Assembly: GCA_030765605.1 (NCBI GenBank) | Contig: JAVCCG010000075.1 | Span: 1-6,584, forward strand | DNA from: Candidatus Alcyoniella australis | Lineage (GTDB): Bacteria > Lernaellota > Lernaellaia > JAVCCG01 > Alcyoniellaceae | Direction: 5' to 3' | DNA: 6,584 nucleotides | Part shown: positions 402-6,584 of the stretch, one piece after another | Position numbering within the stretch: position 1 is the first letter of the stretch | Layout: each line of letters opens with the position of its first letter | The notes under the pieces: generated by a model | Databases searched by the model: none | The model's input: the letters and a program-made list of their open reading frames with translations, nothing else | What the model was told of the DNA's origin: nothing | Position numbers and translations under genes: made by a program

Positions 402-1565
402 TCAGAGCTTTTCCAGGGCAGCGCGCATCCGGCGCAGCGCCTCCTCGATATTCTGGATCGAGGCGGCGTACGACAGGCGCAGATACCCTTCGCCGAACTT
501 GCCAAAGCTCGTGCCGCTGAGGGTCGCCACCCCGGCCTCCTGCAGGAAGTAATCCTCGAGGAAGCGCGAATCTTTGCCTGTTTCCGTGATGTTGGGGAAC
601 ACGTAGAACGCGCCGCGCGGTCTGCGGCAGCTCACGCCCGGCAGGTCGTTCAGCCCATCGACGATCACGTCGCGCCGACGTTTGAACTCGGCGACCATTG
701 TGTGTACATCGTCCTGGGGACCGGAAATCGCTGCAATACAGGCACGTTGCACCGCCGTGTTGGTGCACGAGTTGGAGTTGGTTTGCAGCCGCGCCACCCC
801 GGCCGCCAGCTCGTGGGGCATGATCCCGTAGCCCACGCGCCAGCCGGTCATGGCGTAGGTCTTTGAAAATCCATCAAGAATTATCGTGCGCTCCAGCATG
901 CCGTCAATGGCGGTCAAGGTCTCGAACTTGCCCTCATAGAGGATGTTGAGGTAGACCTCGTCGCTTAAAACCCAGAGATCATGCTGCTTTGCCAGATCCG
1001 CCACCCGCCGCACATCTTCGGCGGTCAGCACGCCGCCCGTGGGGTTCTGCGGCGAATTAAGTATTAAAAGCTTGGTCTTAGGCGTTATCAGCGCGGCCAG
1101 CTCGTCCACGTCGAACACGAAATCGAGCTCCTCGCGCAGCCTGATCGGCACGGGCTTGGCCCCGACAAAGTTGATCACCGACTCGTAAATCGGGAACCCC
1201 GGATTAGGGTAAATCACCTCGTCACCCTCGTTGACCAGGGCCATAATAGTGAAAAACATTATGGGCTTGGCACCCGGTGTGACCACCACCATATCGGAAT
1301 CAAGCTCGATCCCACGCCGCTTGCCCGCGTCGTGGGCGATCGCCTTGCGCAGGTCCGGAAGGCCCGCGGACGGGCTGTAATGCGTGTACCCGCTGTCCAG
1401 CGCCTGCTTCATCGCCTCGATGATGTGACGCGGAGTGTCAAAGTCCGGCTCGCCGATCTCGAGCTCGATCACAGAGCGGCCCTGGGCCTGCAATGCGCGG
1501 GCTTTGGCCAAAACCTCGAACGCCGTCTCAGTCCCCAGCCGTGACATCCTATCTGCGAACTTCAC
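402..1565 (-). CDS. Class I/II PLP-dependent aminotransferase (aspartate aminotransferase-like)
   Basis: Complete 387-residue cytosolic enzyme of fold type I, the usual length for this family (about 380-400). It transfers an amino group between an amino acid and a 2-oxo acid through pyridoxal phosphate. Visible family signatures are the N-terminal GEPDFDTP (residues 38-45), SAGLPDLRKAI near 66-76, SPQNPTGG (171-178) with cofactor-contacting Asn174, SDEVY (201-205) with Asp202 for the pyridine nitrogen, SKTYAMTGWR (234-243) with Schiff-base Lys235 and phosphate-binding Arg243, and YLRLSY (361-366) with substrate-carboxylate Arg363. All key residues are present, so it should be active. The pattern fits the I-gamma aspartate/alanine/aromatic group. 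The substrate cannot be fixed, so no symbol is given. The start is GTG at 1565, chosen for its AAGGAG seven bases upstream; an overlapping ATG at 1570 runs into a stop after two codons. It is the second gene of an operon, 15 bases after the transketolase-like gene. Confidence 0.95.
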   Translation of the reverse strand: MKFADRMSRLGTETAFEVLAKARALQAQGRSVIELEIGEPDFDTPRHIIEAMKQALDSGYTHYSPSAGLPDLRKAIAHDAGKRRGIELDSDMVVVTPGAKPIMFFTIMALVNEGDEVIYPNPGFPIYESVINFVGAKPVPIRLREELDFVFDVDELAALITPKTKLLILNSPQNPTGGVLTAEDVRRVADLAKQHDLWVLSDEVYLNILYEGKFETLTAIDGMLERTIILDGFSKTYAMTGWRVGYGIMPHELAAGVARLQTNSNSCTNTAVQRACIAAISGPQDDVHTMVAEFKRRRDVIVDGLNDLPGVSCRRPRGAFYVFPNITETGKDSRFLEDYFLQEAGVATLSGTSFGKFGEGYLRLSYAASIQNIEEALRRMRAALEKL

Positions 1566-1580: not shown

Positions 1581-3974
1581 TTAGGACGATGCCTGTTCTA
1601 TGTATCGCGCGTAATCGAGGATCGCCGCGAGCATCGACTGCGAGTCGAGGCCGCCCTCCTCCAGCACTTTCTCGGCCTTGCCGCTGCCCAAATAGCGCCC
1701 GCCCTTGAACGGATGCAGCGTGCGTTTCCGCCCCTCGAACGAGCTGATCCAGCGGTAGATCGTGGGTAGGGTAAACCCCGTAATTCCCATGGCTTCACGC
1801 GCGCGCGCCTCGGGGAAGATCGCCTGCTGCTCATCCGACGGCAACAGGTCGAACAGCTCGGAGCTGGCAACGTAATACACGTTGAGGTTGATCCCCTGTT
1901 TGCGCAGCTCGGGCAGTACGTCAAAGGTGAAATTGATCCCAACTTCGCTGCCTTGGAGCACCAGCGTACCGTGGTAGGGTTTGACATCCGGGTCGCCCGC
2001 CACCAGTTTGTAGAGCCCCTTGATCGCGGCGGATGCGGGCGCCACGCCCAAGACCGCGCGGTCGGGCACGATCTCGTTGGGACGCGTGACAAACGGGCAG
2101 AGCACTGCCGGACGCGCGCTGATTCCGGCCATCAGCAGCGGCCAGACCTCCTGTGGTTCCCAGGGGGTAAGCGTGATCAGGATCCCGCGCGGGAAGTTCT
2201 CCTGAAGCAGCTGTAAACACTGGGGATCGGCGTGGGTCGGGCCGTCCTCGCCGGTCTTGATACCCGCGTGGGCGTTGACCATGATGAACGTGCGGAACGG
2301 GTCGCCCGTCAGGTCGTGCATGTTCTGTTGGCCGATGCCGTGCAGCCGCGCAATGATGTGCTCCAGCGCCGCGATGAACGCGCCGTAGGACGATGTGCAG
2401 CCGATGTGCCGGCCGAAGCTCGAGACCCCGGCCATCAGCCCGCCCATGGCGTCCTCGCAGATCCCGCCCACTGCCACCAGGCGGCCAGTTGGATTGGTTG
2501 CCGCGTTGTAAAATCCCTCGGACAGGCCCTTGGCCGCCTTGGAGATCGATGTCGAGTCGGCCAGATCCGCAGCGCAAGCCAGCAAAGCGCCGCCGGTTGC
2601 GAGGTTGAGCTGATTGAGAGCATCGCCCAGGGCGCCGCGCAGGGTGGCCTTGGAACCGGGCTCGAGCACCAGTTTGTCGGGCACCTGATCGGCCCGCAGC
2701 TCGCCTGAATACAGCGCCTCAAGCTTGGGAGCGCCCTGCCGCGGGGCGCGCGCGAGCCCTGCCAGACGCTCCTTGGATAGGCCCAGGCGCTGCACTGCAA
2801 AGCTTGCGGCCGCGCCCTCCTGCTCCAGGGCCTCGCGCATGGCGATCAGCGTTTCAAAGAAAATCTGCTCGATCGACTCGTTGGACCCGCAGTCGGTGGG
2901 CCTGGGGAAGCGCTTGCCAAAGCGTTGTTCAAACGGTTCTGCAACGTATTTAAAGTAGTTCTCAGAGCAGAACCCGTGCCCCGCGCCGTGTGACTTGCGG
3001 CCCTCAATGCCGTAGTGCCAGCCCTTGATCGTGCGATAGACGATCGCCGTGGGCTGATCGGAAATCCCGGCCTTGGCCAGGACCTGCGCAGCCAGCACCT
3101 GACGCAGGTCAAAGCCGTCCTCAACCTCGATCACGTTCCAGTCGTGGGTGTAGCACAGCTCAGTGGGATTCCACTGCACGTAGTCGCCGGGCTGGCCCTG
3201 GTCGGCGCACACGCGGTTGGAATCGATGGACGCTTGGTTCCAATCCACGTGCAGCACAATGTTGCGCAGATTGGCCGTGGCAGCGGCTGCCAGCGCCTCG
3301 TGCACGCGGCCCGGGGTCATGCCGCCCTCGCCCTCGAGCACGTTGACCTGCGGCGCGGCGTCGCCGAAATAATCCAGAGCAGCCAACGCCAGGCCGAACG
3401 CCGCGGGCACGCCTACGCCCGATGCGCCGGTGGCCAGCGAAACAAAGGGCATGGCCGGCGTCGGATGGCCATCCAGAGGTTTGCAGTTGAACTTTTTAAA
3501 CAGCGGCGTTTCCTGAGTGCGGTTGCGCCGAAAACCAAGCAGATCCTCCCAGCGCAGCTGCATTCGCTCCTGGGCCAGCAGCTGCGGCGCGCCGATTCTG
3601 ATCAGCTCGTTGCGCAGCGCCCACATCGCGTAGAGCCCCAGCGCCTTGTGCCCGGCCGCGTAGACCAGCATGTCCGCCGCCTCTTCTCTTGGCTGCGAGA
3701 AGTCGTAGTCCATGGTGCCGTAGAACAGCGATGACACGATCCGACCCGACGAGATGCTGCCGCCCGGATGGCCCGAGGTCGGCGCGCAGTTGTAGAGCAC
3801 GCCGCACAGTGTGCGGTAGACAAAGTCGATGGTCTCCAGGGCCGCTAGCCCCTGGTCTTCCAGCGGCAGCTCGATGTGCTCGAGCACGTCTTTGATCCGA
3901 AACAGCCTAGCGCGTCGAGGTCCAAAGACATCGGTCCGGGCAAGACGCACGATCTTGTCGGGTAATGCTGTCAT
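1581..3974 (-). CDS. Transketolase-like thiamine-diphosphate enzyme, long form
   Basis: A 797-residue cytosolic ThDP enzyme with the transketolase order of domains: N-terminal cofactor (PP) domain, middle Pyr domain and C-terminal domain. Seen from the ATG start: SGHPGGS (67-73) as in transketolases; GEGG (215-218) leading to DWNQASID (244-251), which is the ThDP/Mg motif with Asn246; SHGAGHGF near 328-335; GICEDAMGG (504-512) with Glu507 at the place of the glutamate that activates the aminopyrimidine ring; and GEDGPTH (575-581), a transketolase hallmark. It is longer than classic transketolase (about 620-670), with extra sequence between the PP and Pyr domains, approaching homodimeric 2-oxoacid dehydrogenase E1 in size. 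The canonical GDG reads GEG and IDG reads IDS. The family (transketolase superfamily) is certain, but sugar transketolase activity is less so. It could act on another ketose or a 2-oxo acid. First gene of the operon with the aminotransferase. Confidence 0.9.
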   Translation of the reverse strand: MTALPDKIVRLARTDVFGPRRARLFRIKDVLEHIELPLEDQGLAALETIDFVYRTLCGVLYNCAPTSGHPGGSISSGRIVSSLFYGTMDYDFSQPREEAADMLVYAAGHKALGLYAMWALRNELIRIGAPQLLAQERMQLRWEDLLGFRRNRTQETPLFKKFNCKPLDGHPTPAMPFVSLATGASGVGVPAAFGLALAALDYFGDAAPQVNVLEGEGGMTPGRVHEALAAAATANLRNIVLHVDWNQASIDSNRVCADQGQPGDYVQWNPTELCYTHDWNVIEVEDGFDLRQVLAAQVLAKAGISDQPTAIVYRTIKGWHYGIEGRKSHGAGHGFCSENYFKYVAEPFEQRFGKRFPRPTDCGSNESIEQIFFETLIAMREALEQEGAAASFAVQRLGLSKERLAGLARAPRQGAPKLEALYSGELRADQVPDKLVLEPGSKATLRGALGDALNQLNLATGGALLACAADLADSTSISKAAKGLSEGFYNAATNPTGRLVAVGGICEDAMGGLMAGVSSFGRHIGCTSSYGAFIAALEHIIARLHGIGQQNMHDLTGDPFRTFIMVNAHAGIKTGEDGPTHADPQCLQLLQENFPRGILITLTPWEPQEVWPLLMAGISARPAVLCPFVTRPNEIVPDRAVLGVAPASAAIKGLYKLVAGDPDVKPYHGTLVLQGSEVGINFTFDVLPELRKQGINLNVYYVASSELFDLLPSDEQQAIFPEARAREAMGITGFTLPTIYRWISSFEGRKRTLHPFKGGRYLGSGKAEKVLEEGGLDSQSMLAAILDYARYIEQASS

Positions 3975-4053: not shown

Positions 4054-4110
4054 GGCTCGTCTTACGCGGCCCGATTGCCGGAGAATCGCCCTTCGCATCT
4101 GTGGCTTGGT

Positions 4111-4132
4111 TGCGCGTATCAGCCTACGCGCA
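4111..4132. promoter_or_regulatory. Perfect 8-bp dyad, candidate enhancer-binding-protein site
   Basis: TGCGCGTA and its exact reverse complement TACGCGCA are separated by six bases. The dyad lies about 109-130 bases upstream of the transcription start predicted for the sigma-54 promoter at 4215-4229. Activators of sigma-54 RNA polymerase (NtrC-type enhancer-binding proteins) bind dyads of this size at about this distance, so this is a plausible upstream activating sequence. It is also 57 bases upstream of the -35 box of the opposite promoter and might affect both. The dyad is seen directly; its role is inferred from position. Confidence 0.5.
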
Positions 4133-4175
4133 TGCCCCAAGGTGAGCTGCATCGTATGTGCTAAAAACAGCACTT

Positions 4176-4188
4176 AATCATCTGGTTG
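4176..4188 (+). promoter_or_regulatory. IHF-like site between dyad and sigma-54 promoter
   Basis: AATCATCTGGTTG matches the IHF consensus WATCAA-N4-TTR at all specified positions but one (T in place of the last A of the first half). It sits between the candidate activator dyad and the -24 element, where IHF commonly bends DNA in sigma-54 promoters. The motif is short, so chance occurrence is possible. Confidence 0.3.
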
Positions 4189-4213
4189 TGGAATTATCAT
4201 GTTCGAGCGACGC

Positions 4214-4230
4214 CTGGCACGGCCCTTGCG
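4214..4230 (+). promoter_or_regulatory. Sigma-54 (RpoN) -24/-12 promoter
   Basis: CTGGCACG-GCCC-TTGC matches the sigma-54 consensus YTGGCACG-N4-TTGC at every specified base, with the required ten bases between the GG (4216-4217) and GC (4228-4229) pairs. Only the weakly conserved following W is G. It is intergenic and points to the plus strand, towards the 47-codon frame and gspD. Transcription should start near 4241. Eleven fixed bases are rarely matched by chance in a window this size. Such promoters need an ATP-dependent enhancer-binding activator. Confidence 0.8.
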
Positions 4231-4240
4231 TTGTGTTAGG

Positions 4241-4380
4241 TTCGGCTCCGAGGAGCAACATGGATGTCGTTAAACGCAAACACAGGACACACAGGGCCGC
4301 GTTTCTTCATTTCGATCCTCCTTTCTCCAGCGGCGGCAGCGTCGAAGTCGTCGTCAACGCTGCCGCCGCTAAACTCTTTT
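4241..4380 (+). ncRNA. Candidate sigma-54-dependent small RNA or gspD leader transcript
   Basis: The interval from the predicted sigma-54 start (about 4241) to the end of the hairpin and U-rich tract (about 4380) defines a transcript of about 140 nt with a strong 3' stem. This is the typical architecture of a bacterial small RNA. Both ends are predictions from motifs. The alternative is the 5' part of a longer leader reaching gspD at 4510, or an mRNA for the 47-codon frame. No known RNA family was recognised. Confidence 0.35.
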
Positions 4381-4403
4381 TCGGATTGGAAAGACCAACT
4401 TGA
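4260..4403 (+). CDS. Possible 47-residue small protein or leader peptide, unknown family
   Basis: An ATG at 4260 is preceded by GAGGAG with a four-base gap, nearly the same start context as gspD (GAGGAG then five bases). It begins about 19 bases after the start predicted for the sigma-54 promoter. The frame encodes 47 residues: a basic N-terminus (KRKHRTHR near residues 5-12), a Ser/Gly stretch, then a Val/Ala-rich segment, ending in TGA at 4401-4403. I recognise no family, signal peptide or membrane segment. A 14-bp hairpin with a following U-rich tract lies inside its second half, so full translation and transcription termination there exclude each other. It may be a real small gene, a leader peptide for attenuation, or a chance frame in a non-coding RNA. 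Confidence 0.35.
   Translation: MDVVKRKHRTHRAAFLHFDPPFSSGGSVEVVVNAAAAKLFFGLERPT
4329..4380 (+). terminator. Rho-independent terminator-like hairpin upstream of gspD
   Basis: AGCGGCGGCAGCGT (4329-4342) pairs perfectly with ACGCTGCCGCCGCT (4357-4370) around a 14-base loop. The stem is followed after three bases by CTCTTTTT (4374-4381). On the plus strand this is a strong GC-rich stem plus U-rich tract. The other strand has no U run after the stem, so it acts only in the plus direction. It would stop transcripts from the sigma-54 promoter about 130 bases before gspD. Confidence 0.6.
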
Positions 4404-4456
4404 TTTTTCCCTTACCGAGCCCTATGATTTTGCAAATTTTGGAGTCTTTTACCGAA

Positions 4457-4509: not shown

Positions 4510-6584
4510 ATGATGGGCATCAGGCCTATCTCTATTCTGTTGATCGCCTTGTCAGTCGCCCTGCTGCTGTCGATCCCGGCCCTGGCCCAGGACGAGGACG
4601 GCCCGGGTGCGAGCCTGGGTACGACTGCCGACGAGGGGGACGCAACGGCGTCCGGATCGAGCCGCTGCACCGAGTCCGACCAGGTCGACATCTCGTGCAC
4701 TGACTGCGACATCTCCCAGATCACGCAGATCATCAGCGTTGTTACGGGCACCCACTTTCTGCTGGACAAAAAGGTCACAGGCAAATACACGATCCTCTCG
4801 CCCTCTTGCGTGAGTGCGGAGGACGCCTACCAGATCTTCCTCTCGGTGCTCGAGATCAACGGCTTCACTACTGTCAAGATGGGCGCCGTGACCAAAATCG
4901 TGCCGCGCAAGAACGGCGGTAAAGTCCCGGTGACCACCTACACCGGCACCGACATTCCCGAGGCCACGGACGAATTCATCACCCAGCTCTACCCGCTGAA
5001 CTACATCAACTCCGCAGAGGTGTCCAGCGCCCTGCGCAACTTGGTCTCGGGCGAGGGCAACCTGTTCGCCTACGCTCCGAGCAACACCCTGGTGATCCTC
5101 GATTCGGCGGCCAACGTCAACCGCATCGTACGCATCATCCAGCGGCTGGACGTCGAGGGAACCGAGGAGCAGATCGAAGTCATCCCGCTCAAGTATTCCT
5201 CCGCACCGGTGGTGGCCGAGGAAATCCTCTCGCTGTTCGGCGACCAGGCCGGAGTCGCAGCCCCGGCCCGCGGCCGCACCACGCGCACCAGCTCGACGAG
5301 CAGCTCGCGTAGAGCGCGCACCCAAACCGCGAGTTCTTCGCGCCTCAGAGGATCCGCGGCTTCCGAATCGGGCGTGATCACCAAGGTCATCGCCGACCTG
5401 CGCACCAACTCGCTGGTGGTCAAGGCCAACCGCGTGGGCCTGCGCAAAATCCGCGACCTGGTGGCCAAGCTCGACGTACCGATTCCCGGCGGCGAGGGCA
5501 AGATCCACGTGATCTACCTCAAGAACGCCGACGCCGAGGAGCTGGCCCAGGTGCTGGCCGCCCTGGCCGGCAACAGCCCGGTGGCCGGCGGCGCGACGCG
5601 TGCGACCAGCCAGCGCAATCAGCAGGCCGGCGGCGCTTCGGCCGGTGGCGTGTTCGGCGCAGCGGGCGCGACGGCTCCGAGGGCCTCGGGGGTCACTGGA
5701 GGCGGTGCTCCGACGGTGGCCAACTTCGAGGGCGAGGTGCGGATCACCTCCGACCCGGGGACCAACTCGCTGGTGATCGTGGCCAACCCGCACGATTTCC
5801 AGACGCTCAAAGACGTGATCGATAAGCTCGACATCCCGCGGCGCCAGGTGTTCGTCCAGGCCTTGATCATCGAGATCACCCTTGAGAAGGGTCTCGACCT
5901 GGGCTTTGAGGCCCGCTCCACATCCGACTTCACCGACGACGGCGTGCAGGTCATCGGCGGGTCGAACTTCGGCGGCATCAACCAGGCCGCCACCAACCCG
6001 CTGGGCATCACCGGCCTAGCCATCGGCGCAGTGGACGGCACGATCAGCTTCGGCGGACAGACCTTCGCCAACATCGGCGCGCTGTTCCGCGCCATCCAAT
6101 CCGACTCCGACGTCAACGTGCTATCGACCCCGACCCTGCTGGCCATGGACAACATGGAAGCCGAGATCGTGGTCGCGGACAACGTACCGTTCGTCACCGG
6201 CCAGCTCTACTCCGCGGGCGGCGGCGGCGGATTCACCCCGACCACAACCATCGAACGCAAGGACGTGGGCATCACGCTCAAGGTCACACCGCAGATCAAC
6301 GAGAGCGACTACGTCAAACTCGAGATCTACCAGGAGGCGAGCAACGTCACCAAATCGCCCGAGGGCCTGCAGGCCTCCAACGTCGGAGTAACCACCAGCA
6401 AGCGCTCGGCCACCACCACCGTGGTGGTCAAGGACCGCCAGACCGTGATCATCGGCGGCTTGATGAAAGAGGACTCCTCGATCATCGAGAGCAAGGTGCC
6501 GATCCTCGGCGACATCCCGGTTCTGGGCTATCTTTTTAAGTACCAGAATCGATCCAACAAGAAGACCAACCTGGTGATCTTCCT
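4510..6584 (+). CDS. gspD: Type II secretion system secretin GspD (3' end beyond window)
   Basis: Outer-membrane secretin that forms the multimeric exit channel of type II secretion. 691 residues are visible and the frame runs off the window. A signal peptide covers residues 1-26 (hydrophobic core, ALA-Q cleavage). An acidic linker is followed by N0 (about 57-135), N1 (152-215), N2 (221-324) and N3 (331-440), then the secretin barrel from about 445. Barrel hallmarks are VLSTPTLLAMDN (537-548), VPFVTG just after, DVGITLKVTPQIN (585-597) and VPILGDIPVLGYLF (663-676). The last visible residues, NLVIF, begin the final barrel strand, so only the C-terminal end is missing. The N0 start without AMIN domains favours GspD over PilQ. 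N2 carries a Ser/Thr/Arg-rich insert (250-287) and N3 a Gly/Ala-rich one (355-404). N0 and its lead-in hold four cysteines. The start is ATG 4510 after GAGGAG; ATG 4513 is equally possible. No gspC precedes it. Confidence 0.95.
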   Translation, partial: MMGIRPISILLIALSVALLLSIPALAQDEDGPGASLGTTADEGDATASGSSRCTESDQVDISCTDCDISQITQIISVVTGTHFLLDKKVTGKYTILSPSCVSAEDAYQIFLSVLEINGFTTVKMGAVTKIVPRKNGGKVPVTTYTGTDIPEATDEFITQLYPLNYINSAEVSSALRNLVSGEGNLFAYAPSNTLVILDSAANVNRIVRIIQRLDVEGTEEQIEVIPLKYSSAPVVAEEILSLFGDQAGVAAPARGRTTRTSSTSSSRRARTQTASSSRLRGSAASESGVITKVIADLRTNSLVVKANRVGLRKIRDLVAKLDVPIPGGEGKIHVIYLKNADAEELAQVLAALAGNSPVAGGATRATSQRNQQAGGASAGGVFGAAGATAPRASGVTGGGAPTVANFEGEVRITSDPGTNSLVIVANPHDFQTLKDVIDKLDIPRRQVFVQALIIEITLEKGLDLGFEARSTSDFTDDGVQVIGGSNFGGINQAATNPLGITGLAIGAVDGTISFGGQTFANIGALFRAIQSDSDVNVLSTPTLLAMDNMEAEIVVADNVPFVTGQLYSAGGGGGFTPTTTIERKDVGITLKVTPQINESDYVKLEIYQEASNVTKSPEGLQASNVGVTTSKRSATTTVVVKDRQTVIIGGLMKEDSSIIESKVPILGDIPVLGYLFKYQNRSNKKTNLVIF

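Follow-up and report, generated by a model that had tools for sequence, protein, structure and literature searches.

A candidate sigma-54 promoter, possibly of a short RNA, in front of the type II secretin gene of Candidatus Alcyoniella australis

Does the intergenic region in front of the gspD gene of Candidatus Alcyoniella australis contain a working sigma-54 promoter and, if so, what would be transcribed from it? The stretch of DNA analyzed here (the window, 6,584 nucleotides) is one contig (C75) of an assembly of 157 contigs and 4.29 Mb. Its secretin gene matched TIGR02517 with 526.6 bits (cut-off, 351) and is separated from a divergent transketolase-like gene by 535 bp with a G+C content of 53%, compared with 61% for the window (Table 1). 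A preliminary description had reported a complete sigma-54 regulatory layout in this region, with a dyad, an IHF-like site and a -24/-12 promoter in the correct order on one strand. We confirmed the coordinates and order of these elements on the plus strand and agree on a predicted transcription start (+1) at 4241, set by taking the C of the GC as -12. “Complete” slightly overstates the case, however.

Table 1 Features in and around the intergenic region, with their positions in the window
Feature	Position	Strand	Remarks
Aminotransferase gene	402-1565	-	
Transketolase-like gene, divergent	1581-3974	-	PF00456 and PF02779 matches; under NCBIfam transketolase cut-offs
Perfect 8-bp inverted repeat (dyad), TGCGCGTA-N6-TACGCGCA	4111-4132	.	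-130 to -109 relative to +1 at 4241
IHF-like site, AATCATCTGGTTG, one mismatch	4176-4188	+	
Sigma-54-type -24/-12 promoter, TGGCACG-GCCC-TTGCG, TGGCACGGCCCTTGCG	4215-4230	+	Predicted +1 at about 4241
Predicted short transcript or leader	4241-4385	+	Inferred; folds better than shuffles (z-score -2.6)
47-codon ORF	4260-4403	+	GAGGAG ribosome site (4250-4255) a few nt before the ATG
CCTCCTTTCTCC, complementary to ribosome-binding sites	4317-4328	+	Can pair with GAGGAG at 4250-4255
14-bp GC-rich hairpin, then AAACTCTTTTT; terminator-like	4329-4370	+	
Sigma-70-like promoter, TTGATT-N17-TATGAT, 9/12	4400-4428	+	Candidate own promoter of gspD
gspD, type II secretion secretin	4510-6584, runs past window end	+	TIGR02517, Pfam secretin domains

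The window ends at 6584 in an assembly break, not at the end of the gspD gene. Positions 6458-6584 overlap exactly, over 127 bp, with the end of a second contig (C117), which holds the remaining type II secretion operon downstream of gspD (gspE and further genes). The gspC gene lies at the end of a third contig (G000:C112:13581-14444, minus strand) that has no overlap with the window. On the other side of the intergenic region, the transketolase-like gene scores far under the transketolase cut-offs and had no orthologue in the six other members of the class. It was possibly acquired from elsewhere, or may code for a distinct thiamine-diphosphate enzyme.

The sequence TGGCACGGCCCTTGC at 4215-4229 has the form GG-N10-GC, with TGGCACG and TTGC boxes. 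It is not quite “consensus-perfect”, as had been claimed, since the full site departs from TGGCACG-N4-TTGCW at one position, a G at -11; no other match in the window is as good. The accompanying claim that the match is unlikely to have arisen by chance holds. Only 0.0019 exact cores (TGGCAC-N5-TTGC) are expected in the shuffled intergenic region. With a matrix built from 42 intergenic sense sigma-54 sites of an E. coli ChIP-seq study (PMC4591121), the site scored 13.5 bits, higher than 29% of those 42 sites, and 0.012-0.035 sites of equal quality are expected per 535 bp. The match is thus beyond chance for this intergenic region.

A search for rpoN, proposed in the preliminary description, returned a single full-length gene (474 aa; Sigma54_DBD, E = 6.7e-63; RpoN box ARRTVTKYRE), and the genome contains about 18 strong PF00158 matches to sigma-54 enhancer-binding activators. 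Matches to the promoter pattern were concentrated between genes: of the 30 sites that differ from TGGCACG-N4-TTGCW at no more than one position, 17 were intergenic, compared with 10.6% of 321 random positions assessed by the same rule (P for 16 or more, 8e-9), as were five of the seven exact cores (P = 2e-4). This enrichment is partly confounded, because intergenic DNA differs in base composition. The presence of rpoN, the activators and the intergenic enrichment together support the reading of the site as a sigma-54 promoter, the part of the earlier proposal that stands. Another -24/-12 site in this genome, CGGCACGTAGTTTGCT (L081 1501-1516; G000:C20:15332-15347), is followed after 47 nt by a pilA-like gene. 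An activator gene is found about 1 kb upstream on the same contig, a classical PilR-type arrangement.

Alternatively, the match may be a chance or decayed site, with gspD expressed from the sigma-70 promoter and the dyad serving as an operator of the divergent gene or having no function. Genome totals favor this explanation, with seven exact cores against five for the reversed pattern, which is no excess, and 30 one-mismatch sites against 32; this control compares totals only, while placement was scored for the forward-pattern sites against random positions. The region to be melted points the same way. The base at -11 is G rather than A or T, whereas the four other intergenic exact-core sites have T. 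From -11 to -1, 6 of the 11 bases are A or T, and the other intergenic sites in the genome are more A+T-rich and nearly always begin with T. Scored with a leave-one-out matrix over the intergenic sites of this genome, the core is strong (18.1), but the -11 to -1 segment contributes -3.7, where most of the other intergenic sites have values of +3 to +12. Of the 16 other intergenic sites, 13 exceed the resulting total of 14.3, which is itself only slightly higher than that of the best coding match (13.9). The G at -11 is not decisive against a promoter, since G occupies this position in 3 of the 42 E. coli ChIP-seq sites as well (PMC4591121). The expected number of such sites in the intergenic region, from 0.002 (exact core) to 0.035 (matrix), and the enrichment of matches between genes argue against a chance or decayed site, which we consider unlikely, though it deserves serious attention. 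Our combined findings suggest that the sigma-54 promoter at 4215-4230 probably works.

When the 132-bp region was shuffled with its dinucleotides preserved, 2.8% of the shuffles contained a perfect 8-bp dyad; for the whole intergenic region the figure was 10%, the latter being a point in favor of the chance explanation, and the dyad thus exceeds chance weakly. Its distance from +1 compares with a range of about -80 to -150 for upstream activator sites. Further copies had been proposed as worth searching for; the genome contains no second exact copy, and three others appear at two mismatches, against two for a reversed-pattern control. It could equally be a candidate activator (enhancer) site or the operator of the divergent transketolase-like gene, and its assignment to an activator is a guess. 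At one mismatch the window contains four IHF-like sites, compared with 1.4 expected, and the one at 4176-4188 is weak evidence.

What would such a promoter transcribe? We favor, tentatively and at a probability of about 0.45, a sigma-54 promoter producing an RNA from near 4241 that mostly ends at the hairpin at 4329-4370, with part of the transcripts perhaps reading into gspD. RNA polymerase with sigma-54 would wait at the -24/-12 site as a closed complex until opened by an enhancer-binding activator, perhaps one bound at the dyad and perhaps aided by a bend of the DNA at the IHF-like site. Transcription would then yield a short RNA of about 130-145 nt containing an anti-Shine-Dalgarno stretch, CCUCCUUU. 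The T run behind the hairpin is shifted by about 4-6 nt (AAAC precedes TCTTTTT), so that partial read-through into gspD is possible, and a terminator scan did not pick up this hairpin. The gspD gene probably has its own housekeeping promoter at 4400-4428; three sigma-70-like sites of this quality were found in the scanned region, compared with 0.5 expected. We infer promoter activity, the activator, the role of the dyad, termination and any effect on secretion from the DNA sequence.

A second alternative is that the sigma-54 promoter is real and that gspD and its downstream operon genes are expressed from it through a 269-nt leader, in which the hairpin would be a leader structure and not a terminator. 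On this strand the gene annotated next is gspD, which starts 269 nt past the predicted +1 and whose operon continues on the second contig. With gspC on another contig, gspD must have a promoter of its own, and the displaced T run suggests that termination may be poor. However, where a gene was called downstream of the other intergenic sigma-54-like sites, the distance to it is mostly 14-125 nt, the sigma-70-like promoter is closer to gspD than the -24/-12 site is, and relatives have no such site near gspC-gspD. We regard this alternative as distinctly improbable. The arrangement is accommodated at least as well by a short RNA of about 130-145 nt, possibly extended by read-through into gspD, as by a gspD promoter. 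The suggested tie between secretion and an environmental signal is conjectural: a strong hairpin and the sigma-70-like promoter precede gspD, and the relatives have no such site before gspC-gspD. The other possibility raised in the preliminary description, a small RNA beside the secretin gene, suits the layout better. The predicted window RNA had no match above threshold in Rfam 15. We also considered whether CCUCC could make two ribosome sites mutually exclusive in a long leader and rejected this, as folding pairs the first site only.

The comparison with relatives covered seven genomes of the class, including this one, with the six others all outside its family. All six of these have gspD, and in all five whose sequence spans the junction upstream of it, gspC comes immediately before. 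The surroundings of gspC-gspD in the relatives yielded no -24/-12 match, and a scan of contigs for gspD returned distant secretins only. Among 60 genomes we found no DNA relative of positions 4100-4400, the sole match (in G001) being a low-complexity coding repeat. The intergenic region, as judged from these sequences, is a junction particular to this lineage, and conservation therefore neither supports nor refutes the promoter.

That the promoter serves the 47-aa small protein at 4260-4403 is very improbable: GAGGAG stands a few nt before its ATG at 4260, 19 nt past the predicted +1, but its GC3 of 0.55 compares with 0.81-0.87 in the neighboring genes, it belongs to no known family and has no homologue in the six class members, its ribosome site tends to pair with CCUCC, and it is probably not a conserved protein. 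On the opposite strand (window 4240-4330, minus), CCTCCTTT appears in antisense as GGAGAAAGGAGGATCGAAATG, a good ribosome site that is followed by a frame of 24 codons. The combination of this minus-strand site and frame is probably due to chance.

Only two of the 17 intergenic sites, that of the window and one at another locus (L007, contig C28), are followed within 300 nt by a hairpin whose tail is T-rich, and CCTCCTTT directly precedes the hairpin in both, although this common sequence was picked after the fact. The second locus (L007 1501-1610; G000:C28:3793-3900, plus strand) has an exact -24/-12 core, hairpins, GACCTCCTTTTTGG and a terminator, GCTGAGG-loop-CCTCAGC-CCTTTTTTT. Its neighbors are a dinB-like gene on one side and a lipoprotein gene on the other, and from its sequence features it looks like a standard orphan sRNA gene. 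We tried aligning it with the window RNA as members of one sequence family and rejected this grouping, as the alignment was no better than with shuffles. We therefore claim a common layout and not a family. No homologue of L007 was found in the class, and when the class was searched for a sigma-54 core with CCTCCTT, the hits were confined to L007 and an apparent chance match (in G003), a yield not exceeding that of the controls. It would be a long shot to propose that the two loci form an undescribed set of sigma-54-driven small RNAs that carry an anti-Shine-Dalgarno stretch, CCUCCUUU, immediately before the terminator and repress translation broadly when an activator is switched on, with read-through linking the window copy to the operon for type II secretion. 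Downstream of the -24/-12 sites at two further loci (L077 and L100), GGCCGCGTAGGAT is found inside GC-rich stems, and L100 repeats AGGATTCGGCAG. These stems could be chance or an RNA element, and an Rfam search of the other sigma-54 loci, these two included, yielded nothing above threshold.

The alphaproteobacterial anti-Shine-Dalgarno small RNAs (the “cuckoo” RNAs and their relatives) have an unpaired C/U-rich anti-Shine-Dalgarno stretch near a terminator hairpin. The window likewise has a C/U-rich anti-Shine-Dalgarno stretch near a hairpin, but here it is partly paired, sequence or Rfam relationship is lacking and the status as a small RNA is putative. The site is probably an ordinary sigma-54 promoter in a little-studied lineage. 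If our reading is true, a little-studied class uses sigma-54 in the classical manner and seemingly for small RNAs too, and one genome offers 17 concrete candidate sigma-54 sites; even so, general ideas on sigma-54 would remain unchanged.

Two known systems resemble the layout in the window. In glmY of Enterobacteria (QseF/GlrR, IHF, sigma-54), palindromic activator sites, an IHF site and a -24/-12 promoter precede a small RNA, and Proteus mirabilis co-transcribes glmY with the genes that follow (PMC8745638). The window has a candidate dyad, an IHF-like site and a putative -24/-12 promoter in the same order, ahead of a predicted short RNA. However, glmY has three activator sites, TGTC-N10-GACA, and an overlapping sigma-70 promoter (PMC8745638), whereas the window has one unrelated dyad and no Rfam relationship. 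In crcZ/crcY of Pseudomonas (CbrB, IHF, sigma-54), which also yield a regulatory RNA, an IHF site lies between the activator subsites and GG-N10-GC, and the subsites are several and clustered, TGTTAC/GTAACA (PMC6296734). The window similarly combines a candidate activator site, an IHF-like site and GG-N10-GC, but with a single perfect dyad, which is neither the glmY nor the crcZ/crcY activator motif. If it is active at all, the window's promoter would operate in the manner of these two systems. Thus, the layout is of an already known kind, and what is new is its setting in a little-studied bacterial class.
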